Source of the DNA: Polychytrium aggregatum
Taxonomy: Eukaryota; Chytridiomycota; Chytridiomycetes; Polychytriales
Direction of reading: 5' to 3'
Length of the DNA stretch: 64,000 bases
NCBI RefSeq assembly: GCF_025602895.1
Contig: NW_026516342.1
Coordinates: 1-64,000, forward strand
Positions 12,000 through 46,761 of the stretch are shown here, piece by piece. The position numbers and the translations under genes were made by a program. Numbering within the stretch: position 1 is the stretch's first letter; every line of letters starts with the position of its first letter. The notes under the pieces were generated by a model that was given only the letters and a program-made list of their open reading frames with translations, did no database searches and was not told the origin of the DNA.

Positions 12000-14534
12000 T
12001 CACTCGGGCTTGGGGCAGACACTCGGCCGGTGCCCATCAACGGCTGCCCTCAGCTCGCCAATGACCCGTCGGTTTGCGGCAGAGGCTCTGAGAGCCACCT
12101 CGCCGAGCTTTGGCATCCGAGGAAGCCCAGCAGCCAACGCTGCCTCCATGGTTACATCCAGAGCCATGAGGGAGTCTGGGATCACAGCGGGGTCACTGTC
12201 TTCCGGACCGAGCAGCTGAAGCAGCGGCATCTGCGAGCAACTTCGGAGAAGCTCTTCGCTCGTAGCTCGATTGTACGCCCATGCCAGATGAAGGACTCGG
12301 ATGGCCGCCATCGCCGGGGGGAGGCCATTCAGGCTCTTGAGCATCAGCGGCAGTGTCAGCGATTCCAGGATCAAGCCCAGGCTGGGTGGGAAGCCAACTA
12401 GGGACTCGAGCCGAAAGCACCCGGAGAGATCCAGACTCGACATGTGCTCCAGGTGCTCGGGGAATCCGCGGAGACTCTCCAGAGACGGGGGGAGATGGAG
12501 TGTCTTGAGCCTCGGCGTTTGGGGAAACCCTTCGAGGGTCTTCAGCACCATGCAGTCGTTCATCCAAAGAGTTTCCAAGGAGTCGAGATGCACCGAAGCA
12601 ATGTCCAGGCTCTTGATGTTTGGCGGAAAACGCAGCTCTCGGAGTGCCGGCATGCTCGGAAGACCCTTGAGCGATGTCAGCTTCGAGCACATGCCGATGT
12701 CGATACAGACAATCGACTCAAGGGTCGTCGGCATGCCTTCCAGAGTGGCGATGGATCGGAGCAGACTCAGGCCTTTGAGCCGAGGCATCTCGGACATTCC
12801 ACCAAGAGCCCTCAAATTGCAATGCTGCTGCAGATGGAGTTCCTGGAGAGACGGAAGGACCGACGGCATTCCCTCGAGGCTCGTGAGGGGCAAGTCGAGC
12901 GAAAGCATCTCCAGCGAGTCCATGGCGGGCATTCCTCTGAGCGACTCGAGTGCTGATCCTTTGAGGCTCAGTCGTCGGATCGAGTTCAGCCAGGCTGGCA
13001 TGAACCTGAGATCCGTGGCCGACATGGGCAGCTTCAGTTCGACCAACGCCGGCATCTGCGCGAGTCCGTTTGCCAGCCTCAGTCGGGTACACGCCGACAA
13101 GTCCAAGAGACGGATCGTTTGGAGGTATTCGGGGACTTGGTTCAGGGACTCGATCGATGCCGGCAAAACAAGCGACTGCAGCCGTGGGGTCCTTGAGCGC
13201 TTTCTGGATGAGCACGCTGCGCTGTGCGAACTGCCCTTCCCGCTGGCTGGCGAGTCCGGATGTCCGCTGAGCCAGCTCAGGTTCGCCACCGACCCATGAA
13301 TCGATAGCGTTTCCAGTTCGGGCATCGATGGAAGCTCCTCGAATCCGTATTCTGGCTCGTCAACCACAAGATGAAGGGTTGTGATGGTCTGGAGAGTTGC
13401 AGCGAGTGCATCGAGGCCACAGAGCGACGACGACAGCCACAGTTCCGCCAGCGACGGCATTACGGTGCCCAGGCCGCCGTCGGTGCGAGATGGAGACTTT
13501 TCTTTGGGCGATTCCGCCGAGTACGTCGCTGGGCTCAGCAGACGGGAGAGGCAGTCGCTGGATTGCGGAAGTTTGAGGGTTCGCAGTCGTGGCAGCTTGG
13601 GCAAGCCTTGGAAGGATACGAGACGGGGACACGCAGAAATGTCCAGCGACATGAGGCATTGGAAACTCTGTGGCATGCCGTCGAAACTGAGCAGTGACCT
13701 GGGCAAGGCAAGAGCGGACAGCATCGGCAATGCCGGCATGCCATCCAGATCTTCGACGATTCCCTGGGGCTGCGTATCGACGACGACGAGTGATTCCAGA
13801 CCGTCGAGACCCCGGGGTCGGTCCGAGAGCGGCAAGAAGGAGCAGTTGACCAATGCCAAGTTTCTCAAGTACGTCTTTTCGAGAAAGTAGTGCTCGTGGG
13901 GCAGGAGACAGGACATGTGCTTGTCGGTGTGGAAGGGATGGCTCGGGAATCGCGCGACGGTGAGGAGCCCATCAAAGTGCCCGTAGCGTCTCGAATACAG
14001 GCAGTGCCTGCAAGAGTTCACCCGCAGAATCTGCGAGCTGTCAAAGAGCTGGAACTGCTCCTGCGGACACAGATCTGCAATGTTGCTGGGGATGCTTTTG
14101 ATGGCGCAAAGGCAGCGGAGCGACTTCATCTTTCTGAGGGCCTGGGCAAGGAGGTCCTGAATCTTGCTTCCCTCCATCGCCGGCAGCTTGACAAAGGCCC
14201 ACCAGAGAGGGAGCTCCTTCTGGTATGCCCCGCGGCCTTGCGGATAACCATCCTTTCGGCCGAGGAAGGAGCACACGCCCTCGAGGACAGCCCTCCGGTC
14301 GATGCCCTGGAGATTTGCAAACACAGCCTCGGTGACCTTGAGGCGACGATAGAGCTTGTTCATCCACGGGTCTGTGGAGGTGAGAGACAGGACGCCCCGG
14401 TACTGCCGAGCGAGCTGCGGAAGCCGGCCCAGGGTCGGTAGATCCAGAAACCGGACAAAGCTATCATTGCACACGAGGATGGTGAGGAGGTCGTGGTTGG
14501 AAAGGGAGGAACGGGCGCTGTCGAGAGACGCCAT
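12000..14534 (-). CDS. Large leucine-rich-repeat protein, possibly with an N-terminal F-box-like segment
   Basis: A single exon of 844 residues if started at the ATG at 14534 (MASLDSARSSLSNHDLL); the frame stays open upstream to 14921, but that part is Pro/Arg-rich and reads into the shared promoter. Residues of about 10-60 (LLTILVCNDSFVRFLDLPTLGRLPQLARQY) resemble an F-box-type helical adaptor, which is inference. From about residue 200 to 820 there are roughly 20-25 tandem leucine-rich repeats with the theme MPxLxxLxLPxSLxSLxGMP alternating with LDLSxCxRLxSLxGLP, some repeats being of the Cys-containing SCF/plant type. Such proteins act as protein-binding scaffolds, often choosing ubiquitin-ligase substrates. 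It is divergent from the TKL kinase gene, with about 370 bases between start codons. Confidence 0.85.
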   Translation of the reverse strand: MASLDSARSSLSNHDLLTILVCNDSFVRFLDLPTLGRLPQLARQYRGVLSLTSTDPWMNKLYRRLKVTEAVFANLQGIDRRAVLEGVCSFLGRKDGYPQGRGAYQKELPLWWAFVKLPAMEGSKIQDLLAQALRKMKSLRCLCAIKSIPSNIADLCPQEQFQLFDSSQILRVNSCRHCLYSRRYGHFDGLLTVARFPSHPFHTDKHMSCLLPHEHYFLEKTYLRNLALVNCSFLPLSDRPRGLDGLESLVVVDTQPQGIVEDLDGMPALPMLSALALPRSLLSFDGMPQSFQCLMSLDISACPRLVSFQGLPKLPRLRTLKLPQSSDCLSRLLSPATYSAESPKEKSPSRTDGGLGTVMPSLAELWLSSSLCGLDALAATLQTITTLHLVVDEPEYGFEELPSMPELETLSIHGSVANLSWLSGHPDSPASGKGSSHSAACSSRKRSRTPRLQSLVLPASIESLNQVPEYLQTIRLLDLSACTRLRLANGLAQMPALVELKLPMSATDLRFMPAWLNSIRRLSLKGSALESLRGMPAMDSLEMLSLDLPLTSLEGMPSVLPSLQELHLQQHCNLRALGGMSEMPRLKGLSLLRSIATLEGMPTTLESIVCIDIGMCSKLTSLKGLPSMPALRELRFPPNIKSLDIASVHLDSLETLWMNDCMVLKTLEGFPQTPRLKTLHLPPSLESLRGFPEHLEHMSSLDLSGCFRLESLVGFPPSLGLILESLTLPLMLKSLNGLPPAMAAIRVLHLAWAYNRATSEELLRSCSQMPLLQLLGPEDSDPAVIPDSLMALDVTMEAALAAGLPRMPKLGEVALRASAANRRVIGELRAAVDGHRPSVCPKPE

Positions 14535-14905
14535 GGTGGCCGAGATCGGGTCCAGATCCCGTGGTATTGCAGAGGACGTTGGAGAGCTGGCTTGCTGCGG
14601 CTGGACTTGGACTCGCTCTGTTGCTCGGCCGACATATCCAGATGGCAGGAGGGCGCCAAAGACGAGCGGGAGGCCGAACGGGAGGCCGAACGGCCGCGAT
14701 TGCATCCGGCCAGCCCGGCGATCCGAGTGCGCAGCCAGGCGCGACGCGGCGGGGTCTGGTGACCAGGGGCGATCCGCCCAGCGAATCAGAGGCGGCCTGC
14801 CTGGATTGTGTCCCAAGGGTCGTCGTGCTGTCCCGCTGCTCCTCTCCAACTTGGCCTGCCCATCAAGCCCATCCAGCTCTTCCAGCCCATCGGCTCCCTC
14901 CAACC
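14535..14905. promoter_or_regulatory. Divergent promoter between LRR protein and TKL kinase
   Basis: The start codons at 14534 (minus) and 14906 (plus) face away from each other across 371 bases. The region is C/T-rich on the kinase side. No TATA box is obvious. Co-regulation of the two genes is inference from position only. Confidence 0.5.
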
Positions 14906-15640
14906 ATGGCCACCGGGGCACCCCCAGCAGACGACTGGTTCGTCCCGGCCGATGCCGTCACCGACTGGTCCCCTCGTCCCATCGCCACCGGTGCTTTCGG
15001 CGAAGTCTTCATCGCGAGATACCGCAACCGGGATGTCGCTGTCAAGCAGCTCAAGGAGCGGATCGGCGCCCGCGAGCTTGCCGACTTTTGCCAGGAGGTC
15101 AGGGTCTGGTACCAACTGGACCATCCGCACATTCTCCCCCTCCTCGGCGCCTGTGACAAGGATGAGACCGGCGGCGGCTCTCTCCGACCCTTCATGGTCT
15201 CGCCGTTCATGCCGCGCGGCACCCTGAGCACATACGTCTCAGACCATACCCCTCGTTCCGAAGAGAGGCTCCGTCTACTCTTCCAGGTCGCCGCCGGCAT
15301 GGCGTACCTCCACAGCAAGGACATCATCCACGGAGACCTCAAGGCCAACAACATTCTTCTCGACGCAGGCCTGAACGCCGTCGTCACCGACTTTGGCATG
15401 TCCAAGACTCGGAATGCATCGAGTTCCGTGACCCAGCTCGCACCGGGCACGCACGCCGGCGGAACCGTCCTCTTCATGGCCCCAGAGATGCATGATCTGC
15501 AGCGGCCATCGCCATCGACCCGTCGCACCGACGTTTACGCCTTTGGCATGACAGTCTACCAGGTCTTCAACGACCGCGGTGCCGTTTGGGTTGTCGACGA
15601 TGGATATTTGCTCCAGACGGTCATAGGTCATAGGTCATAG
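14906..15640 (+). CDS. Tyrosine-kinase-like (TKL) protein kinase, truncated C-lobe
   Basis: A 244-residue single-exon kinase domain. Visible motifs: glycine loop IATGAFGEVF (first Gly of GxGxxG is Ala), VAVKQL lysine, the helix C region QEVRVWYQLDHPHILPLLG, catalytic loop IIHGDLKANNILL (HGD in place of HRD, common in TKL kinases), VTDFGMSK, GGTVLFMAPEM, and DVYAFGMTVYQVF of helix F. After GYLLQTVIGHRS the frame stops, so helices G-I that normally complete the C-lobe (about 50-60 residues) are missing. The stop lies inside three head-to-tail copies of GGTCATA (15619-15640). The minus-strand transporter ends less than 200 bases downstream, leaving no room for a lost exon. It is probably a real but degenerating or catalytically compromised kinase of an expanded TKL family. 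Confidence 0.8.
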   Translation: MATGAPPADDWFVPADAVTDWSPRPIATGAFGEVFIARYRNRDVAVKQLKERIGARELADFCQEVRVWYQLDHPHILPLLGACDKDETGGGSLRPFMVSPFMPRGTLSTYVSDHTPRSEERLRLLFQVAAGMAYLHSKDIIHGDLKANNILLDAGLNAVVTDFGMSKTRNASSSVTQLAPGTHAGGTVLFMAPEMHDLQRPSPSTRRTDVYAFGMTVYQVFNDRGAVWVVDDGYLLQTVIGHRS

Positions 15641-27335: not shown

Positions 27336-29428
27336 AGCGCCATCGCAGGCCTTCCCCAGCACCAACGCTCCGGCCTATCCCGGAGCTTTTGGAGGAATAC
27401 GGCTCATGGTGCCTCGCCCGCCCATGTGCTCGGGCCTCGTGTTGGTGTCGCTCGCAGCTGGGCTTTCGCCGCAATCTCCCTTCCCTCCCTGATCTGGCCA
27501 GATCCTGCCACCAGCACCCCTTGGGCCCTGTTCTGGCTGCTGCTGCTGTCGGTGGCTACATGTATGCTTCTCCGCAGAGTCTGGACTCTCCCAAGGCGAC
27601 CAGGCTGCAAACCCTGGCCGGCGGATCGCTGCTCTTCGAGGACGCCGTCCTGCCGGCTGCAGCCCGGGCAGGCATCGACCTCGCCAAGTGGGTCCCGCCA
27701 CCACATCCTGGTCTTCTGCTGTCGAGGTCGCTGGAGAGTACGCATATCGACTGTTGCAAGATTGCTGCCTTCCCAGCCTCGGACCGATTCCCAGATCACC
27801 TTCCTCCTCCTCCTCCTCCTCCTCCTCCTCCTCTTCCTCCTGGCTTGTGCGAATGCCTGCTGACCTTGGGCACTTCGACCTCGTTCGCCGTTTCTGCGGC
27901 GCTGTTCTCTCTCTCGGATTGCTCTGCTTGTCGTTGGTAGATCCCAGAGCCCGTCAGCTCGATCGCAAGTTCAGCCAATGGAGTCTGAACGGTCGCTCCC
28001 TTGGCTCGCTGGCCAGCATTGCTGCGGTAGGAACTGATCCGCAAACTCGGGCGCTGGGCTGCCTCTAACGAGGAAGGCGATCGTGTGGCCCAGGAGGAAT
28101 CACCCGGATGCATGCGAATGCCTATTGCCGCGGCGACCTGAAAAGCTCTGGCTCCTGTCGTGCCCAGATCGTGGTTGCCGAACATTTTGATCTGGTCGAG
28201 TCGCTTGAAGGCCTGGAATGGAGTCCGATTGGACACCACATCTACACAGCCCTGAAGAAACGATATGCAGTGCTGTCGCCCCGCATGATCGCTCTGCTCT
28301 CGATGGCATTTCCGGGTGAGTGGCAGCCGTCCGATCGCATTCCCGGCGTAGCTGCAAGCATGTTCCTCGCTTTCTGGTGCAGCGGCAGCGAAGGATGCCC
28401 CGGGCTGTCGTTGCTGACACTCCCGACGGCACTTTGGCCGACCACTTTCTCCAGATCACTTTGGCCGGGACAACGCTGTCCTTGCGAGCCTGCCCTCGAC
28501 ACCGTCACATCCAAGGGCATTACTGGAAACCCTGGCGTATGCATGCGGCTCGACCCTGACCGTCCTGAATCTCAGCCGCACACAGCTGGGCGATAGCGAC
28601 TTGCCATATCTGCATAATCTTCCCAAGCTGCGAGTGCTCGATCTGTCGTTCACCCTGCTCACCGACGTTGGCCTGGTGGCCTTTGTTCGGCCGATCGACT
28701 TTGCCTCGAGCAGCCTGAGCGAACCAGGAGCTATATGGGCTCGCTCAAACCAGGAGGTCGCATCGGACTGGCTGGTGCTTGGCCGCCGCTGCTGCTGCTC
28801 GATTCAAAGCCTGAGCCTCAAAGGACTCGGGACGGTCTCGGATCGAGGAATCGGCGCTATTGCTCGGAAACTGAGGCACTTGTCCGTATTGGACGTTGGC
28901 CAGACCCTGGTCAGCACCAACGGTCTCGAAGCCCTTGGTCGGACGCATGGATGGATGCGGATATCGGCTCTGCAGCTCACGACCATACTCGAAGACCATA
29001 CCGGCAATGCCCCGTCCGAAGCGATGCTGGATACACCGACGGGAACGGGCAGGCTCCGAGCCCTGCTCCGCATGAGCCCCTTTGCCGGGCTGACTCCAAA
29101 CCAAGGCGAACAGAGCCAGTCGGATCTCCTCGAAACACTGCGCCAAGTTCATGCCCACGACCCACCGACGTTTCCAAGGAGTCTGCGGCGTCGAGTGCCA
29201 GAGTCGTCGTTGGCAGAGCTTCGGTCCTCAATCTATTTATTCCGAGATCCCGATTCAAGCGCCACCAAACGAACCAGCAGCGGAGGAGAAAGCTGGGGCG
29301 ACGAGCCGCGTTCAGGTGCCAAGGCCGTCGGATCCAAGCGCTCGATCGGCCTGTCGGTTCACTCGTCGAGGAAGAAGCCCAGCCTGGGTCCGAAACTCTG
29401 GGAGTCGCTCGATGATCATCTTCTCTAG
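27336..29428 (+). CDS. Leucine-rich-repeat protein, 5' end unresolved
   Basis: Exons that join in frame: about 27336-27414 (ending AFGGIRLM), 27578-27737, 27941-28026, 28168-28315, 28455-29428. The first exon and start codon are not resolved. The N-terminal part reads SLDSPKATRLQTLAGGSLLFEDAVLP, then LENPRARQLDRKFSQWSLNGRSLG, and VVAEHFDLVESLEGLEWSPIGHHIY. Typical repeats follow: STLTVLNLSRTQLGDSDLPYL, LPKLRVLDLSFTLLTDVGLV, SIQSLSLKGLGTVSDRGIG and LRHLSVLDVGQTLVSTNGLE. This is the cysteine-poor AMN1/FBXL style of leucine-rich repeat. The last 110 residues are Ser/Arg-rich, ending KKPSLGPKLWESLDDHLL. It is likely a protein-interaction scaffold; an F-box is not visible. Intron 27738-27940 holds a TCC microsatellite (27801-27842). 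Confidence 0.75.
27801..27842. repeat. TCC/CCT microsatellite in an intron
   Basis: About 13 TCC units within the intron between residues SLE and NPRARQ of the LRR gene. It would read as poly-Ser or poly-Pro if retained. Confidence 0.85.
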
Positions 29429-29921: not shown

Positions 29922-31074
29922 CCAAGGTATTCAAGGCGGGAGCATGAGAAATTAGAAGCAATCGCTAAGTTGAATCGGGAGCCAAAGCGGTGAGGGACTG
30001 GGGCAAGTGCGGGGGGGGGTGCGAGAGAGCAACTGACGTACTTTTGAACTCTTTCAGCAAGCTCTTTGCTTTGGTTTCGCCAATGCCGGGGCAGCACTGC
30101 ACTGTTTTGATCAGGCGCTGAGTGTTGGTATGTTTGCTTGAGGCCTTTTCCGTCGGCGTCAACGAATGCTTCTTCGGACGGGCATACTGGTGCGCCTGGT
30201 TGGGTCGAGAGCCGGGCAAACCAGAGCCGATGCCGATGCCGATGCCGATGCCGATGCCGATGCCGATGCCGATGCCGATGCCGATGCCGATGCCGATGCC
30301 GATGCCGATGCCGATGCCGATGCCGATGCCGATGCCGATGCCGATGCCGATGCCGATGCCGATGCCGATGCCGATGCCGATGCCGATGCCGATGCCGATG
30401 CCGATGCCGATGCCGATGCCGATGCCGATGCCGATGCCGATGCCGATGCCGATGCCGATGCCGATGCCGATGCCGATGCCGATGAATGAGGATCCGCGTC
30501 AGTCGATGCACATTGGCGGACAGCTCTCGTGAATCCAGGAGACGCAGCACATGGGTTCATGGGAACGCACCAGTCGAGCTATGTACCGGACTCCATCTGT
30601 GACATTGGCTACCGGGATAACTCGGATGTTGAGGGTGAAGAGCGCCGTCCACTGTAGTTCATCGAACTGGGTACCGGTCATATCGGTCTTTTCGATGACG
30701 GCGACCGGCTGCTTGAACTGCAGAGCGATTTGGGACAAAGGTGCATTGAAGGGCACATCAGCAAGAGCGCAGATAGATGGAGGCGAATGTACGGGAGCGG
30801 CAGGCTCGGTGCTGATGGTATCAGCGTCTGTCTGTACTTTGCCAAGAGTCTCCAGCAGCCTCAGGTGGCTCTTGATGGGCTTGAGGAGCAGATCCGACTC
30901 TTGAAACAAGAGTATCCCGCAATCCTGGTGAGGAACAAAGTGAACAGGGATATCGGACTGGCTCAGGCGGACCTGGACTGCCGCGGTCCGGGGCACATCA
31001 GCATCCGGACTGATGCGGTTGGCAGCAGCGGTGGTTGCGGCGACAGGGCTTACGGTCCGGAGTGAGGCTTCCAA
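29894..31074 (-). CDS. FAAP24-like protein (pseudo-nuclease plus helix-hairpin-helix)
   Basis: Exons on the minus strand: 31074-30571, 30195-30042, 29964-29894; 729 nt, 242 residues (human FAAP24 is about 215). The first exon holds the XPF-nuclease-like fold seen in FAAP24: PVHFVPHQDCGILLFQESDLL, then QPVAVIEKTDMTGTQFDEL and RVIPVANVTDGVRYIARL. Exon 2 holds a helix-hairpin-helix: QRLIKTVQCCPGIGETKAKS followed by LLKEFK, matching the tandem HhH that binds DNA. The order and spacing follow FAAP24, the FANCM partner that directs the Fanconi anaemia core complex to stalled replication forks. ERCC4-type catalytic residues (GDxxxxERK) are absent, as in FAAP24. An acidic Thr/Pro loop in exon 1 is an extra insertion. 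The first intron contains the giant hexamer repeat. Identification is from remembered family pattern, so moderate to high. Confidence 0.75.
30226..30484. repeat. GATGCC hexanucleotide repeat, about 43 copies
   Basis: A nearly perfect 259-base array of GATGCC inside intron 1 (30570-30196) of the FAAP24-like gene. All six frames are open through it (Arg-His, Ala-Ser, Gly-Ile, Met-Pro, Asp-Ala, Cys-Arg dipeptides), which explains several long spurious frames. With donor GTGCGT at 30570 and acceptor CAG ending at 30196 the array is intronic and flanking exons join in frame. Confidence 0.95.
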
Positions 31075-37342: not shown

Positions 37343-38713
37343 CTGTTTAAGCAATCACACTAGTGTCTCCAGAAGCAGCGCGGGTGAGCATGGTGCACAT
37401 TGGTGAAGAATCGGGATGCGGGTCCAGTGCGGTAAGGAACGCAGGTCAGTCAGAGGAGCCGGTGGGCAGCCAACGAGCGACATTCTCCAGATCTGCTGCT
37501 CTGCACAACTGCAGCGCCCGGGAAGTTGGAAGCATCGTATCGCCGGTATGCGAGCCAGTCCTGGTCCGTCGAGGCAGACAGTGTGCGCTTCGCCAGGTCG
37601 CCAAGGCGAGGCAGCCGCAGCGGGTTCGCACCTGGTAGAAGACCGAGGGCACCGGGGTGGGGACATGGAGCGATTGGCCCTGGGCCGGGCTGCCGAAGGA
37701 AGAAGAGCTCAAGGGCATTGCAGAAGGCAGCCACAATCGGGCTATCTCGGGATGGGCTGATGCGGGAGCCTGTGATGGCTCTGGAGGGGGGGGGCAGTTG
37801 CGGCCGGGTGAGCGGGAGGGAGAGATGGAGGGAGAGATGTTGGGCGACGGCGCTGCGTTTCGGCTCTGCCAAATCCGGCGAGAAAGGGTGCGGGCGGTGG
37901 GACGACGCAGCGACCGGGCCTGCAGCCCAGTGCGGACATGCAGAGGTGGATACGCCGACGGGGACATGCACAGGTATCCATGCCAACTCGGATATGCAGT
38001 TATACATGTCAAATCGGGGATGTAGTCATCCATGCCAGCCCGGCGATGCCCCTGGTGCCCATGCACCAAGTCCGTCGCGTTATCGACGGATAATGTGTTT
38101 GTGGGATCGCCGCGGATGGGTCGTCGCATTGTTGACACAACACAGCAGACAGACTAATGTCTTGGAAGATTCCGGGATGAGGGTGGGAGATGGCAGCGCG
38201 GCAGTCGGTATATAAGCGCGCAGGGCCGTCGTCCGAGTCGATGTCCATCTGCTCGGTCGACAGCGCCATCACGCCCCAGTATTCCCACGCAGACCATCGC
38301 CCGGACCACTCCTCTGGCCATCGCTCTGACACCTGCGTAGCCGTTCAAGTGCGCTCGCCGTCCTCACTCCCACTGCAGCGTCCGGTAGGTCATGGCCCTC
38401 CAGAGTGGGTGTCCTGGTCCTCTTACAGACGACACTGCCCGGGGACTGCCATGTTCGCGCTCCGTGGACTTGCTGCTCGGCTGCCACCCACATCCAAATT
38501 GATGGTCCGTCGTTGACTTGGGCCCATCTAAATTTCTGGTTTGGTGGCCATCAGCGCCGGCTCGAGAAGCACAAGTACAAGTACGAGAACAGGAACGAGA
38601 ACAGGCACATCAGCAGCAACAGCCACTATCACCCGCACCAATCCGAGCCAGAGAACTACAAGCCTCGCCTCGGACCTACTCCCCCAGACAAGTCGAACCC
38701 GGGCCTCGTCGCC
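37343..38713. other. Divergent intergenic region, may hold the first DCTN4 exon
   Basis: About 1.4 kb between DCTN4 (minus) and the Kre9-like gene (plus). The start codon of DCTN4 must lie here. Open frames of 100-230 residues on both strands are Ser/Pro/Arg-rich without features. A plus-strand frame from 38405 runs in frame into the Kre9-like protein and could add an upstream leader. Confidence 0.5.
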
Positions 38714-40054
38714 ATGTCGATCACAAATTGCCCATCCGTGTGTCTGAGCACATCGGTACTGACCCCGGGATCAACCTATGCACTGACCTGGCTGTCAACG
38801 TACTTTTCCCCAACCCAGAATGCACCGCTGCAGATTGATCTGTACAGCCAGAGCTCTACTGCATCAACGACGCTGACCTGTGCAACAAACTCCAGCACGC
38901 TGCTGAACTTTCCAAGCGCCAACACAGGCTCGGCCAACTTTGTGGCTCCTCTTCTTCCACAGCCAGGATTCTATGTCTTTCGAGTCAAGTCCATAGACTC
39001 GAGCTGCTTGTTTGGACCAGCACAAGGAGTGTCATTCGCCCCGAATGCAAGTGCCTCTACCTTGACCTCGACCCAAACACCCTCGGGTTCTAGAATAACA
39101 AGCTCAGCCACCCCAGGCACAAGCAGTACCACCCAACCGACAGCCGACAACAGCACACAGCCGCCCTACACAGTCGGTATCATCATTGGCTTCTCAGTGA
39201 TTGCCGTTTTGCTGGTACTGCTACTGGCCAGCATCCTCTTCATATATCGCAAGGTCTTTATCATAAAGAACATGCCTGGCGGATCTGCCGACAGCACTTT
39301 TGCTAGCACTCAAGCCACTGGACGTCATTCGCCGTCGCCCACGCCGTCGGCTCGCACGATTGACAGCGACCCGGTGGTGGTGACAACGCAGTCCCCAGAA
39401 CCAAGGTCCAACGGTCACTACAGCGCAGCCAGGGAATCTGAGCATTCGTTCCAGTCCCCGGCCCCGATTGCCGTCACGGATCGTCCGTCAGCATCACCCA
39501 ATCCAAAGCGATTCTCACATCTGTCCCAAGTCTCTGGACAGAGCCCCAAGTCGATCCTTCGCGACAGCATGTCCGTGGTTTCGGTCGAAGATCTCACCCT
39601 GATGGCATCGAAGGGCAACTTTGACGCCATTACCGAGCTTGAGAAGCGAATCCGATCGGCTTCCTCGAGTCTTGCTCGATCCAACCAACTCTTGGCCTTG
39701 CTTACAGAGCAGATGAAAAATCAGCAGCAGCAGCAGCAGCAACAACTTCCTCATCCATACATTCCGCCGGTGGGCCAGAGCTTCTCCGAGGGCTCTCCTC
39801 AGTCACTAAAGCTGAGATCGATGACGCCGCTCGTGAGCTCGGTGTCGCTTCCCTTGGGCTCGCTGGATGGCGGTGCAAACTCATCCGCTCACTCGTCGAT
39901 GAGCCAAGAACAAGCAAACAAGATCCTGCAAGTATTCTTGAAGGAGCTGCGGAATCCCCAAGTCGGGAGCTGGGACGAGGTCGTCGGTAAGGTTGGCCAG
40001 ATCATCCGGGAGAATCCGGATCTGTCTGAGGCCCTCAACCACCCTCACTCGTGA
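38714..40054 (+). CDS. Single-pass surface protein with Kre9/KNH-like domain and disordered cytoplasmic tail
   Basis: 446 residues when started at MSITNCPSVCLSTSV. Residues of about 10-110 (LTPGSTYALTWLSTYFSPTQ, LQIDLYSQSSTASTTLTC, PGFYVFRVKSIDSSCLFG) form a small beta-sandwich pattern like the Kre9/KNH N-terminal domain of fungal wall proteins. A Ser/Thr-rich stalk (about 110-150) leads to one membrane helix, VGIIIGFSVIAVLLVLLLASILFIY-type (about residues 155-180), then a basic stop-transfer KVFIIKNMPGG. The long tail is Ser/Pro-rich with a Gln tract, a short helix LMASKGNFDAITELEKRI, and a C-terminal block LQVFLKELRNPQVGSWDEVV. The layout is that of a wall-integrity sensor or receptor. No signal peptide is visible at this start, so a short upstream exon or the longer frame from 38405 may supply one. 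Confidence 0.7.
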   Translation: MSITNCPSVCLSTSVLTPGSTYALTWLSTYFSPTQNAPLQIDLYSQSSTASTTLTCATNSSTLLNFPSANTGSANFVAPLLPQPGFYVFRVKSIDSSCLFGPAQGVSFAPNASASTLTSTQTPSGSRITSSATPGTSSTTQPTADNSTQPPYTVGIIIGFSVIAVLLVLLLASILFIYRKVFIIKNMPGGSADSTFASTQATGRHSPSPTPSARTIDSDPVVVTTQSPEPRSNGHYSAARESEHSFQSPAPIAVTDRPSASPNPKRFSHLSQVSGQSPKSILRDSMSVVSVEDLTLMASKGNFDAITELEKRIRSASSSLARSNQLLALLTEQMKNQQQQQQQQLPHPYIPPVGQSFSEGSPQSLKLRSMTPLVSSVSLPLGSLDGGANSSAHSSMSQEQANKILQVFLKELRNPQVGSWDEVVGKVGQIIRENPDLSEALNHPHS

Positions 40055-41078
40055 AGCTCGTCACAAGTGGGCGTCTGGTTGTGATCAAGCAGCGGTATAG
40101 AATGCTGTGGCTCGTTCTACTTGTTGCTCGCAACGTAAGCGGAGGCATCCAAGATATGGTATGGATGAACTCTTTATCTCTAGATCTGAATACATGCATA
40201 AACTTCCATGCTCAACAGCCCGCCGCCACTCCGAGCTGCTCTCTGTCGTCTTTGATGGAATGCCCTCGATCCGCCCATGTATCTGGATCCCACTGTTTGG
40301 TCTCACTGTTCGGTCTTACAGGCACTCCCAACTTGCACCGCGACAGTGTTCCTGATGCCGCGATGTTGGATTGCGACATTGGATTGTGCCGTTGGATTGT
40401 GCCGTTGGATTGTGCCGTTGGATTGTGCCGTTGATTTGTGACGCATCAACACATCCCCCATTATGCGCCTCCACTCCTTCCTTGTCCAGCGGGACGAATG
40501 AAATGAATCGGGAACATGTGTTTATTCGGGCCCAGAGGGAATGATCGGCGACCGCAAAGCGAGGTGTCTCGTTTCATTTTGTGAGCGCTGCAAGTGCAGA
40601 GTCCGGCATTAGCCAGAGACAAGTGGATTCACACATCCACGGTTCTACAGCTACCATTCTTCGTCTAGAGTACGTGGCAGGAGGGATGTCTATCGAGTCA
40701 GAACCCATTCTATGCAAGACCAAGGAGATCCAGGAGTAGACGATCGAAACAGGAGAACAATGAATCAAACAAGCAAACGCAACAGAGGCAAACGTGGCGC
40801 TTGCTCTCTACGAGTAGCAAAGATATGGGGCTATCCATATGAGCACATGAAAAGCGTCAACGGTGCAAGCGTGGAAGAAGAGGAAATATAGAGCATCCCG
40901 GTGCTGGAGCAAGGGCGGCTGTTAGGGCCGAGATCGTGAGCAGAATGCAGCAGGTAAGAGCGTTGAGCTGGGGATGGAAAGGGTGTAGTGCTGCAGCATC
41001 GGGATGAGTGAAAGTGTACCCAGCGGGGGCCCTTGCATGCGTGTGCGCTATTGGAGAGGTTTGCATGCAAGCTTCGAC
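40055..41078. other. Convergent intergenic region with 13-bp repeat
   Basis: About 1 kb between the 3' ends of the Kre9-like gene and the TEAD-like gene. It contains the TTGGATTGTGCCG repeat (40375-40437). No gene is supportable. Confidence 0.55.
40375..40437. repeat. 13-bp tandem repeat TTGGATTGTGCCG
   Basis: Four to five head-to-tail copies, the outer ones degenerate (TTGGATTGCGACA, TTGATTTGTG), downstream of the Kre9-like gene. Confidence 0.9.
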
Positions 41079-42571
41079 TCAGTCCGTGTATCCGTAGTCC
41101 TTCAGTCGAAGCACGTCGATGCCACCGGCTCCAGGTTCAAACACAAAGGCAAGGCAGAGCACCGTCGTTGGTGCATTTCCGGCGTCGATGTCCTTATAGA
41201 TCTGGTGGACGTTGCGAGACGGTATCCGTTACGATCAAAGTCTGGGGTCGCAAAGCCGATTCAGACTTCATGTCCGCCCAATTGCTCGCAGGCGAAATGC
41301 TCCTGGCAGCAGAGCCGCGGGCGTGACCCCCGTACAATGGCTTGCAATCGGTTCTCCGTGTAGAGCACCGTCCGGGGAAGCCATCGCCCACTTTCTACTC
41401 AGTCGCTCCCTTTTCGTCATACGCACCTGCATGACTGTGAGATTTTCGATCGCCCAGACTGCTTCGCTGTAGGTTTCAAGTTGTGAGAAGCCATTGAGGA
41501 AGGTATTGAAGAAATCCCCGGCAAAGTCAAACCGGTATATCAGCCGGTCGTCTTGGTTGAGTGGATAGCGCATCTCGGTGGTCTCGAGGATCTTTTTGCC
41601 AAAGGAATGGATACTTGTCGTGCACTCTATGGTGCGGTACCGCAGCGACTCGTAAATGGCAATGTTTTTGCACACACCCGAGTATGTGTATCCCAGGTCG
41701 ATGTTCATCTGCAAGGATGTGGATTAGACGGCAAGGGTCACCCAAACAAGTAACAGCCAGAATAGCATTGGGCATTAGCAGTTAAGTATGAGTCGGTTGG
41801 GCATTGCAGCGACACTGGTGCCTCGATTCGTCACAGCGAGCCGCTTGCGCTTTGAATCTGACGTCAGCGCGAGCCATCCTTCTGTGAACGGTACCTACCT
41901 TCAGCAAGAAGAACGAAGCCGATCTGATGCTCTTGTCGAATTCGTCTTGTAGTCCAGGCAGCAGGTTAAGAGGAGCACTACATATATCGATAGCTGGAGC
42001 CGAAAGGAGCGTTTGGCGTTCGTTCAGACGGACCAATTGGTGTCGCTGGAGCTGGACAAACATGTGCGGCATAGAAATCAGTGTCGATTTATCGTCGGGC
42101 AGTGCCAGGATCCCACTGAACCAAGACGACGCAGATCCAGGACCACACTCAGCTCCGGATCACTTCCAGGCCCCAGGGGGACCACGTTAAGCATGCAGCT
42201 CGAAAATGTACCAACCTCGGTGCTGCAGGTCAGGTCGACAAAGTCCAGGTGCATCTGAAAGTAGGTCAGATAGAAGACCGGAGAGCCACGAGATCCATCA
42301 TCCCCGAAAGTGATGTCATCCAGGTTCACACTGTGCCGACATTGTGCCATTTTAGGGGCAGCATATGGACACGCCGACACCAAGCCGCCTATACGAACAG
42401 GCGATTCCGAGGGGCTTGGCGACGGCAGAGAATAGGGCCTGCACTCGGTAGGAGACTGGTCCGGCAGCTTGGGATGCAGATCCGATGGCGTTGGATACGA
42501 TCGAGACACGTCCTGTGGCTCCGTGGGAGCTGTTGATGAGCGAGGCCGGCGAGGGGGGAATCGATTAGTGT
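41079..42571 (-). CDS. TEAD-type YAP-binding-domain protein (TEF/scalloped C-terminal fold), no TEA domain seen
   Basis: Last three exons are clear: 42115-41899, 41708-41427 and 41201-41079 (stop at 41079). They match the C-terminal YAP/coactivator-binding domain of TEAD factors in order: PAIDICSAPLNLLPGLQDEF with SIRSASFFLLKMNIDLG (TEAD: AVDIRQIYDKFP, NAFFLVKFWADL), GVCKNIAIYESL (FYGVSSQYES), IECTTSIHSFGKKILE (VTCSTKVCSFGKQVVE), LIYRFDFAGDFFNTFLNGF, AVWAIENLTVMQ (MMNSVLENFTILQ) and TTVLCLAFVFEPG (ETLLCIAYVFEV). Upstream, to about 42571, the frame holds a Ser/Pro-rich linker and SPVFYLTYFQMHLDF, the likely first strands. Joining it at 42115 needs one extra base in a G-run. The auto-palmitoylated Cys of animal TEADs is His here, and HIYRL at the end reads DVLRL. 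No TEA DNA-binding domain is visible to 45.6 kb. Confidence 0.75.
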
Positions 42572-45500
42572 CTGCACGCATAGCGAGGCAGAGCACAGAG
42601 GACCGACAGTAGCATATCGACTTGACCAGTGTCCCAAAAGGCAGCCAGCTAAGGATGCAAACCCCGCCTCGATGATCCCCTCCAGCACACGGAGGGAGGC
42701 GGTGAGAATGCAGTGGAAAGGCAGCCCACCCTTGCGATCGGTGCTTTTGAGGAGGCCTTGAGTGTTCTGGTTGAGATGGATGGATGGAGAATATAGACAC
42801 GACGAGAAAAACAGGATGAGTGGAGCGAATCGGACCCATATCGCTCGCCAAGGCTCCGCAGACTCCATCCCGCCGTATCGAATCGTGCAGGGCAGCTACT
42901 CTTGTTGGGAGACACCGTACCAGGCTCGGAAGCCGTATGAAGAGCTTGCGGGCCGTTGCTCGACTTGAGCCGGCATCTTTGGAGGACTCGAGTGGTGATA
43001 AGCTTTTGGTGTGGCCGTATGGATGGACTGGAGGGCGGGTTGGAGGATACGGTCGGATACAGCCCGGCAAGAATAAGCAAAGACAACGATTCCAGGAAGT
43101 AAGTGCTTGGTCACTGGCATGTATAGAGTTGTCGACGACTTGGCTTACCGCCGCGCTTGGTTCGGGATGCCAGAGATTCGACACAGAGCGAGCGCGAGTC
43201 TCGGGCCGACGACTTTAACGAAGATTTCGAGACATCGGCCGACCGCAGCTCTGCCTGGATGCCTTGAAGACCGGGCGGGCCCGAAAACGAGTAACCGAGG
43301 GGCTTGGAGGTACTTGGGGAGAGCGAGGCAAAGGCACTGACAAAGGACGGAAAGTGCTGGATCGAGTACGTGCTGCGAGCCGGGAGCTGCTATCGGAGAC
43401 AGAGGGCAAGCGAGAGACAAGGTTGTCAAATAAGTGTTTTATCGAGACTGGAACAGCAACTCAATGGGGGGGGGGAAGCCATTGGACAGCTTTGACGAGC
43501 CTGGCTCAATTGGGAGCGATACTCCCATAGGGTACGAAATACGACGAGGCGGAGGGCGGAATTATAGATCCACCCGAAACCAAACCAGCCAGGTTCAAGC
43601 CCCGACGACAAGAGTCCATGATTGCAAGGAGTCTGTATGAATATGGCAGCAACAGCGACATGAATCGCATGATAGACCCATACCGCGACATCCGAATCCG
43701 AGTCCGAGTACATCTCGGGAAACTGAATTTGGAGAGGAGGCAGGTGCTGGCACTGGAGCATGGCTGGCAGAGAAGACAGGGCTATGATGCGGGAAGATGG
43801 CGGGAAAGCAGGAGGGCGGGTGACTGCTTTATGTGAGAGTTGAGTGGATGTGTGGGCTGGCGAGGACCGAATAAAGTCTCTATGGGAAAAGCAGTGCTGT
43901 GGAGAAGAATGATGCAGAGAGTTGAAAGCGCCCGGTCTTTGCAAATGTGGAGGAGGAGGGCGCTGGAGGAATTAGAGACAGGAGATTTGCTGCAGCGGGC
44001 TGAATTGGTAGAAAGCGACGGCGACGAACGAGGGAGAGTCGATGGGCCAGAATTGCGGACCGATGTAGGACCAGGGCCAGTCTTTCAGCCGATGCCAGAG
44101 GTATGATGCCAGAGTTATGATTGAGGGAATGTGCTGGAAAGGCGAAGATGTTGCTTGCCCAGCCAGACAGATCTGCAAAGCCAGCGACCCGGACAGTTCA
44201 GAAGGACAGACCCTGATCGATCGGCGAGCGCTCGAGAATGCTCCAGCTATCGAAGCAGCCATCGGGCAAACCAAGAACGTCGAGCCCGGAGCGATGCTCA
44301 TGGCATGTTCTGGGGGGATTGGGCGAAGGGAGATGCTTGCGGCAAGACGATCAATCGCCGACCAGGGTGAACGACAGGTACTTACAGGGTCAAGCAGCAC
44401 AGCGAACGAGGGCAAGATACGAGAGATTATCGCCCAACTGGCTCGAAAGAATAGGGGCGCTGGGTTGGATCCAAGGATGAGGGAAAGAGCAGCTATCGAG
44501 GGATTGTAGCAGCAGCCCCAGGAACACAGCTACTCCGGGAAGCGACGGCAAGAAGGGATGGTGGTGATGGATCAACAACGGAAGTGCTGTGGCAAATACT
44601 GGACCGAGCCCTGGATGATGTCGACCAGTCGATGGCAGCAACTCGGGCGGATGGAGAATGCGGTGCAGAATGAGGGATGAAATGAGGGATGAAATGAGGG
44701 ATGAAAGGGGGGGGAGGAGGACCTGAGATGGCGGCACCGGCTAGATGAGTGATTGGGGTCGGCGGGAGATTGGGATCGGGGCAGCGCCTGGGCGAGTGGC
44801 TCGAGAATGAAGCTCCAGGCCAGGATGAGTGGGGATGTATTGGCAGAAGCGAGGCAAAAATGGAGGGAATTCTGTGGGAGCGAGGGAAGAGTGTTACGGA
44901 ATACTCCACAATACAGCAGGAGGAGTTGCTGTGCTGCCGCAGGGGTCTGGTCCAGCCTTCCAGCCGACCGACTCTGGGCGGGAGCGAAAGGCGGTTCGGG
45001 TTTGGTGGATGCGGGTGGGCGGCAGCGGCAGCGGCGGCAAGCATCGCTGGTATGGCATGCTGGGGAGGGCGAGATCGGTGCAGTCGATGCTGCCGGTTGA
45101 TGTTGCCTTCGATGCCGGTGTTGAGATGTCAATGGCGAATGGATGCACCGGGCGAGCGTCAGGGCGCCAGCAACATGCATGTCGGCGTGTCGGGTCCATT
45201 GTCCATCGTCATCAGGTCGTTGGCGTGCTGCAGCACCGTCTCCCACGGGTGCAATCCAGCGGGGCCGTCTCCGGACGGTTGAGTTGAGCAGGCACATTGC
45301 GCGGGAGTGCTGATGGGCGCGGCAAAGTGCGGGTGGGTGATGTCGAGCCAGGAGGCCATTCGACCTCGTCATGACGGCCGTCTGGGCGGATCATCATGCT
45401 CGGCAGCGATCGAGTGATCAAACAACGGAGCGTTCGAGTGACCGAGCCAGAGAGCCAAAATCACCCGAACCGCCAGGGACAGCACAAACAACACAACAGC

Positions 45501-45644
45501 GCACACAGCACAGAAGAGCAGCTTCATCGAAAACTATGGCCTTTTATTCTTGAAACATAAACGCAAGGGACTTAGCTCCCAATAACAGCCCCACAGAAGC
45601 AGGGCTGCATTGGTACACCAGTGGGGCTGCGGACAAATCTCCAT
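42572..45644. other. Long region without a recognised gene, may hold 5' exons of the TEAD-like gene
   Basis: About 3 kb. On the minus strand, 43409-43215 reads as a Ser/Arg/Pro-rich segment (RLPSVSDSSSRLAARTRSS and onward) that could be linker sequence. The rest shows many short frames on both strands and low-complexity purine-rich sequence on the plus strand (43260-44720), with an ATGAGGGATGAA repeat near 44670-44705 and G-runs at 43465 and 44707. I looked for the TEA motif RTRKQVSSHIQV and GRNELI on both strands in the frames supplied and did not find them. Confidence 0.5.
44670..44706. repeat. ATGAGGGATGAA tandem repeat, three copies
   Basis: Three head-to-tail copies of the 12-base unit followed by a G-run in the gene-poor region. 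Confidence 0.85.
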
Positions 45645-46761
45645 TTAGTAGAGGCGGACAGGCTTGCCCATGGACGACTTGATGAAGAGGGACTTGACGT
45701 TCTGCCAGTTCTTCTTGAGAAGGGAGACCAGGAAGTTGATGGACATCATGGTGTTCTGGATGATCTCGTCCTCGGTCATATCGACGTGGCCAATGGCAAC
45801 ACCGAGGCAGAGAACCTTCTTGAGCTGGAACTTGATGGTGGCCTTCATCTCAGTGACCTTGTCACCCAGGTTCTCGGAGTGGGTGAGGGGGGTGGGGAAC
45901 TTGCCGGCCTTGGCCAGACCGGGACCGAGCAGACGGGGGATCTGCTTGATGAGAGCCTCAGAGGCCAGGAAGGCATCGTACTTCTTGGCAAGCTTCTTGA
46001 TCAGCTTCTTGTTCTTGTTGAGCTTCTTGAGGTCCTCAACAGACTGGTACTCGAGGTCGATCTGCTTGGCCTGATCAATGTGGGCCTGATCGGCGAGAAT
46101 GCAAATCTTCATCTTGGGCTTGGGGATGTTGGGCAGGCGGACGGTTCCAGAGAAACGCTTGTCACGCTGGGGATCGTAGTTCTTGAGACCGATCTGGAGC
46201 TCGATGGTCTCGGTGAACTTTCTGGGCTTCTCCTCCTTGGAGTAGCGGAGGAGTTCCTTGACAGCCTCACGGACGGCACTCGCTTGAACCTTGCTGTGAA
46301 CAGCGACGGTGCGTGTGGGATGGGCGGGCGAGAGAGACGTTGATGTTGAGTATTGGTGCGCATGGGCTGCTTCTTCTACATGGCGACCTCCCGCTTTTCT
46401 CCCTCTCGCACACAGCGGTGGGTGTAGTTTCCCACGAGTGCGATCCGGGCCAAGTTTGGCCGTGAATTGCTCCCGCGGAACAGCTGCCTCCATCCCGTCA
46501 GGCCCAATGGGCGAGGCATCCGAGTTTGTGCCATCGTGGATCTGCCGTGCACCTTGAGGCATTCGTGTGCTCCGGATTGCTGCTGGTGCTGGTGTTGCTG
46601 GTGTTGCTGCTGTTGTCTTGATGCAGGTTTGCCCAGGTCCACATTCCGCCGAGCGTTGCATGCCTGCTGTCACGCTGTGCGCCTCGCGTACGACCACCTC
46701 CTCTCCACAGCCGATCCGCCGCATCTCCTGCCCAACGAGTCTGCTCGTTCGTTTACCTCAT
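45645..46761 (-). CDS. RPL10A: Cytosolic large-subunit ribosomal protein uL1 (RPL10A)
   Basis: Two exons on the minus strand: 46761-46757 (ATGAG only) and 46293-45645, separated by a 463-base intron (donor GTAAAC, acceptor CACAG). Sum 654 nt, 217 residues, exactly the family length. The protein reads [17 protein letters not shown], then [39 protein letters not shown], a Lys-rich [19 protein letters not shown], and [14 protein letters not shown], ending [11 protein letters not shown]. It forms the L1 stalk near the ribosomal exit site. A five-base first exon carrying only the start codon and two further bases is typical for ribosomal protein genes with a long first intron. It is divergent from the mitochondrial uL5m gene. 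Confidence 0.97.

Follow-up and report, generated by a model that had tools for sequence, protein, structure and literature searches.

A homologue of the TEAD YAP-binding domain, with no TEA domain detected, in an apparently early-diverging fungus

In this study, a stretch of 64,000 nucleotides (the window), taken from contig C47 in a 64.7 Mb genome assembled as 418 contigs, was observed to carry on its minus strand the exons of a domain that sequence comparison confirms as a true homologue of the YAP-binding domain (YBD) of the TEAD factors. These exons are intact in two haplotigs, and our searches failed to find a TEA DNA-binding domain. We lean, if modestly, towards the reading that the gene encodes a TEA-less protein acting as a docking adaptor free of DNA binding, with a tail that is probably serine-rich. 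The initial annotation had gone further and put the locus forward as its best candidate for a new regulatory system; its YBD homologue, its early-diverging fungal host and its missing TEA domain are supported, and the binding of YAP or Vgll and the new system are not supported. We regard the find as a variation within a known domain family, not as a system of a new kind.

Homology of the domain and structure of the gene

It had been claimed that three minus-strand exons encode the elements of the TEAD C-terminal domain, and the quoted peptides are indeed present on that strand and follow one another as described; the three exons that hold them have GT-AG introns between them and join in frame. 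The features of the locus, in window coordinates, are as follows.

38330-40054, downstream open reading frame (ORF), Psg1-like, 30.0 bits and so just below the Pfam cut-off of 30.1
41079..41201 (-), last coding exon, with a TGA stop; encodes IYKDIDAGNAPTTVLCLAFVFEPGAGGIDVLRLKDYGYTD, the final YBD strands
41202..41426 (-), intron of 225 bases, GTGCGT...CACCAG; splicing it out gives continuous YBD homology
41427..41708 (-), coding exon, MNIDLGYT...IENLTVMQ; the YBD core (helix-binding groove, SFGK motif)
41709..41898 (-), intron of 190 bases, GTAGGT...TTGCAG; contains CTAAT, which resembles a branch site
41899..42051 (-), coding exon, LQRHQLVRLN...SASFFLLK; upstream edge uncertain, frame open to 42159
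42052..42215 (-), probable intron of 164 bases, GTTGGT...GTCCAG; other boundaries possible
42216..42254 (-), probable exon, tentative; MHLDFVDLTCSTE, the first YBD strand
42921..43761 (-), predicted 5' exons 43761-43684, 43389-43149 and 43027-42921, Ser-rich tail, low confidence
45645..46295 (-), upstream neighbour, ribosomal protein uL1 (the part aligned to solved uL1)

The Pfam profile check was run on the joined exons, which scored 45.8-48.0 bits across versions with the YBD profile (PF17725), above its curated cut-off of 23; the three-exon product itself reached 46.6 bits (E 4.4e-12) over profile positions 19-188 of 201. With the probable exon ending at 42216 the score was 48.0 bits over positions 7-188, whereas the alternative join gave 46.1 bits over 19-188; in the 48.0-bit version the exon was read on upstream of 42254, and the match starts three residues before the MHLDFVDLTCSTE stretch. 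In the PDB search, 43 distinct sequences matched at E<=1, every one of them TEAD1-4 or Scalloped, and the solved domains of these proteins matched at E 6.5e-10 (the best) to 1.2e-8. The local score with human TEAD1 was 139, in comparison with a mean of 31 (s.d. 4.7, maximum 57) among 500 shuffles, and the profile, PDB and shuffle scores together indicate that the match is not due to chance. Identity to TEAD1 is about 31% across the domain, and the alignment extends through VFE in the last exon.

Parts of the domain were also detected without any joining of exons. When the six frames of the window were searched with TEAD1 as a single sequence, the core exon scored 29.5 bits, and the middle exon region gave 32.5 bits (E 2.2e-6) in an intron-blind YBD scan of the whole genome, by a match that overruns the exon and includes one TAA. 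No YBD paralogue was found at E<=10 genome-wide, where just this locus and its haplotig copy appeared. From the homology, a TEAD-type immunoglobulin-like beta-sandwich with helix-turn-helix inserts is implied as the probable fold. Relatives were also sought in viral contigs (0 confirmed of 204 pattern matches) and in bacterial and archaeal genomes (0 confirmed of 68), collections which contain no fungi, so that these zeros are uninformative on spread among fungi.

Upstream of the YBD exons the gene model is a weak prediction. It came from a home-made splice/codon dynamic programming procedure that gave 11 exons, 42512-42399 included, of which only the YBD exons are trusted; the start at the ATG at 43761 was the analyst's choice, the procedure itself having started at 45199. 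Of the three YBD exons tested for codon score, one gave 0.11 and the others stayed near zero (0.02 and -0.03). The predicted N-terminal part contains 21% Ser, its first three exons match no Pfam family at E<=1, and it is probably a flexible, Ser-rich tail. Just downstream of the gene, a 13-base tandem array, GTTGGATTGTGCC x 5, was noticed at 40365-40433.

Search for a TEA domain

The identity of the upstream neighbour as uL1 is well marked (Pfam Ribosomal_L1, E 2.9e-53; PDB uL1, E 1.8e-97), and its position bounds the possible location of any TEA exon. The earlier statement that no TEA domain is visible in 3 kb upstream was borne out as far as uL1, for none was detected in the 3.4 kb separating that gene from the YBD exons. 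Among 164 six-frame ORFs of 41079-46500 the best TEA match had an E of 2, and in ten chosen minus-strand ORFs up to uL1 a Pfam scan at E<=1 recognised no domain that binds DNA; the only weak match among them was YdjM (E 0.0061, below its own cut-off). The genome-wide TEA search that had been suggested likewise returned nothing at E<=10, neither with the Pfam TEA profile nor with a human TEA query, in both cases with no TEA positive control.

These negatives, like the YAP one below, are accompanied by partial controls only, none of them a eukaryotic positive control, and an empty result of this kind is by itself uninformative. In the first, the genome scan caught the YBD through a single exon; in the second, the 67-position Chitin_synth_1N domain was detected as fragments 27-41 residues long, with introns apparently separating them, so that a split TEA domain would probably show as well. 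We think that the TEA domain is really absent, a strongly diverged one being possible. The corresponding alternative, in which the gene encodes a complete TEAD-like factor with a DNA-binding part that is too diverged to be recognised or that lies in an unrecognised upstream exon, draws on the uncertain 5' model, the predicted upstream exons and the missing TEA positive control. Against it stand the empty genome-wide searches, the best E of 2 in the six-frame search of the locus, the ten upstream ORFs, and a predicted N-terminus that is Ser-rich and matches no Pfam family, and we consider it unlikely.

Contact residues, candidate partners and known systems

Contact residues were taken, in TEAD4 numbering, from the accessible parts of PMC5400505 and PMC10146773. 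At the eight positions examined in the helix groove (interface 2), four are identical (S336, F337, F373 and L380), two are conservatively replaced (Y369F, L377F) and two are changed (K376G, V389A). In the omega-loop pocket, three of the ten positions examined are identical (L295, K297 and V414) and one is conservative (V265I), whereas six are changed or missing in one alignment: E263 falls in a gap, and Q269A, D272N, K273L, W299N and Y429L are substitutions. W299 is paired with N in both alignments; E263, D272 and Y429 are unaligned in the single-sequence profile, the alignment is uncertain near E263-K273 and Y429, and the local alignment with TEAD1 pairs Y429 differently. In the accessible text of PMC5400505, of the TEAD mutations measured, that of D272 has the largest effect, and F373 and V414 contribute little to YAP binding. 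The contrast between groove and omega-loop pocket is suggestive only, as the counts are small and stand on a background identity of about 31%.

C335 aligns with a His in the fungal YBD. The palmitoylated Cys, which we take to be the Cys in SPMCEY of TEAD1 and C367 in TEAD4, corresponds to a Gly in the profile alignment and falls in a two-residue gap in the other. The available part of the review PMC12672301 numbers the palmitoylated residue Cys360, and states that loss of TEAD palmitoylation reduced YAP/TAZ binding, palmitoylation being dispensable for VGLL4. As far as the portion of PMC10146773 consulted goes, VGLL1, 3 and 4 contact TEAD through no interfaces other than 1 and 2. The residue counts would be more compatible with docking of the Vgll1, 3 and 4 type than with the YAP mode, and a YAP carrying an omega-loop is probably not what docks here.

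Among the searches for partners, a human query for the TEAD-binding segment of YAP, run with no positive control, gave 0 genome matches at E<=10. The Vg_Tdu profile of the Vgll/Tondu proteins gave three genome matches at E<=10, with a best E of 0.005, which occurs on two contigs that are nearly identical (3,048 bases with 3 differences), and the profile of SARAH, a Hippo kinase domain, gave five, of which the best had an E of 0.84, below the cut-off, with matches in 2 of 14 control genomes too.

L006:1501-1548 = G000:C113:509060-509107 (+), Vg_Tdu-like stretch, also in L007 (C383); 23.5 bits
L009:1450-1977 (-), G000:C35:331051-331167, weak likeness to SARAH; E 0.84, under the cut-off of the family

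The Vg_Tdu match covers 16 residues, including GDISERVEGHFSRAL, at profile positions 14-29 of 31. Its 23.5 bits lie below the family cut-off of 27, and the ORF that holds it, when scanned alone against all of Pfam, gave an E of 0.00015; the same profile at E<=10 also matches 2 of the 14 control genomes, both bacteria, below cut-off. The stretch, which shows no visible gene structure, lies on the opposite strand to the 3' end of an ORF judged by eye to encode leucine-rich repeats (LRR), and its own ORF has 0 PDB matches at E<=10. The codon score of this ORF was neutral, a result that was discounted because the YBD exons tested were likewise neutral in two cases out of three. We take the match, from its position antisense to an LRR-like ORF, as probably due to chance.

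The docking of a YAP/Yorkie- or Vgll-type coactivator at this domain, as a Hippo-like output in a fungus, has the partly kept groove residues and the Vg_Tdu values on two near-identical contigs in its favour. Against it, the Vg_Tdu match is sub-threshold and antisense to another ORF, its profile also matches control genomes, its ORF has no PDB match at E<=10, no YAP-like segment was found at E<=10, SARAH reached only an E of 0.84 or worse, and several omega-loop hot spots appear not to be kept; we consider such docking quite improbable.

Under the TEA-less adaptor reading that we favour, the YBD groove would hold a short, amphipathic helix belonging to a partner protein at the site where the LxxLF helix of YAP and the VxxHF helix of Vgll dock in animals. 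The adaptor might then sequester its partner or carry it to another DNA-bound factor, and its mode of action could be akin to that of the TEA-less TEAD4 isoforms of mammals. A more specific history, which we offer tentatively and rate as doubtful, is that the docking half of TEAD predates the split of fungi and animals and survived here as an independent adaptor once the TEA domain had been lost, binding Vgll-like helices in the groove only; the groove would then be ancestral, and the omega-loop contacts a later holozoan addition.

Compared with TEAD1-4 and Scalloped (PF17725), the fungal domain is homologous over most of its length and keeps the SFGK motif and apparently part of the groove, but it belongs to a fungal gene without a detected TEA domain, the palmitoyl Cys is not conserved, and several omega-loop residues appear not to be. 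Vgll/Tondu and YAP, the animal ligands of the YBD, were not convincingly found in this genome. Tec1 and AbaA, presumably the fungal members of the wider TEA/TEAD world, differ from the present protein in being defined by the TEA domain that it apparently misses, and we know of no YBD in either of them. Both are named as homologues in the accessible text of PMC12672301. There is also a likeness with TEAD4-deltaN and TEAD4-S of mammals, which have a YBD and no TEA domain. In the part of PMC10888684 available, these forms arise through splicing or a second promoter; TEAD4-deltaN is found mainly in the cytoplasm, and inhibition of the nuclear entry of YAP is reported for TEAD4-S. Both come from a TEAD4 gene that also encodes the complete protein, whereas no full-length version was found in the fungal genome, in which the TEA-less YBD appears to be the sole form.

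With reference to the literature, the parts of PMC4761220 consulted describe Yorkie as restricted to Holozoa and Scalloped as lost in chytrids, and those of PMC7035326 place the first complete Yorkie/Scalloped pair in Corallochytrium, Scalloped/TEAD having been identified there by what is printed as a TED domain. A YBD without a TEA domain would escape searches based on the TEA domain. In the titles and abstract openings searched, no announcement of a fungal YBD was seen among the matches listed, and the literature search found no paper naming PF17725; protein databases may already label fungal YBD proteins automatically. A TEA-less fungal YBD would be consistent with a docking module that predates animals, and it opens to test the sequence in which the nuclear end of the Hippo pathway was built, namely the docking fold, then a groove ligand, then the omega-loop and palmitate switch. 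The importance of the fungal domain hinges on its distribution and its partner.

Host genome and origin of the gene

The genome holds 13 matches to the chitin synthase N-domain, which we take to mark fungi, and eight to a radial-spoke protein, which we take to mark flagella, haplotig duplicates being included in both counts. The organism thus looks like a flagellated and hence early-diverging fungus, the latter as the initial annotation had supposed. A second copy of the YBD gene lies on C375 (1.15 Mb), a haplotig that is 99.5% identical over 26.6 kb; the two contigs with the locus measure 103 kb and 1.15 Mb. Within 41079-43761 the haplotypes differ at 41112, 41326 and 43475 only, too few for a selection test, and the sole difference in the YBD exons (41112, GTG/GTT) is synonymous. 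A 20-base insertion was also noted in C375 at window position 45047, between the YBD gene and uL1.

The contig being animal contamination had been named as a danger to the claim, and the copy on the 1.15 Mb haplotig, with its single synonymous difference, makes this unlikely. The fungal YBD scores nearly equally with TEAD1-4 and fly Scalloped, at about 38-42 bits, as against 395-414 bits between human TEAD1 and TEAD3 or TEAD4, which places it outside these animal TEADs and counts against contamination or recent transfer from animals. Contamination from an animal or other holozoan, or a recent transfer, would agree with the surveys summarised in the accessible text of PMC4761220. Set against this are the size of the two contigs, the neighbouring Psg1-like ORF (just below cut-off) and uL1, a distance that is roughly the same to every animal TEAD matched, and the chitin synthase N-domains of the genome, and we judge such an origin extremely improbable.

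The gene could also be a decaying remnant of an ancestral TEAD gene, a pseudogene in the making, and the apparent loss of the TEA domain together with the changed contact residues and palmitoyl-Cys position would suit this. Both haplotigs, on the other hand, show open exons, usable splice sites and a conserved core, and the YBD exons differ between them at a single, synonymous site; that the domain is still 31% identical to TEAD1 implies long-lasting constraint; we find decay very improbable.

Elsewhere in the window, ORFs with LRR repeats occur at 12000-14957 (-) and 28418-29428 (+), and an ORF with a tyrosine/Ser-Thr kinase domain at 14486-15640 (+) overlaps the former on the opposite strand. 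A perfect hexamer array, GCCGAT x 43, occupies 30226-30484, and its copy on C375 is shorter, at about 181 bases.
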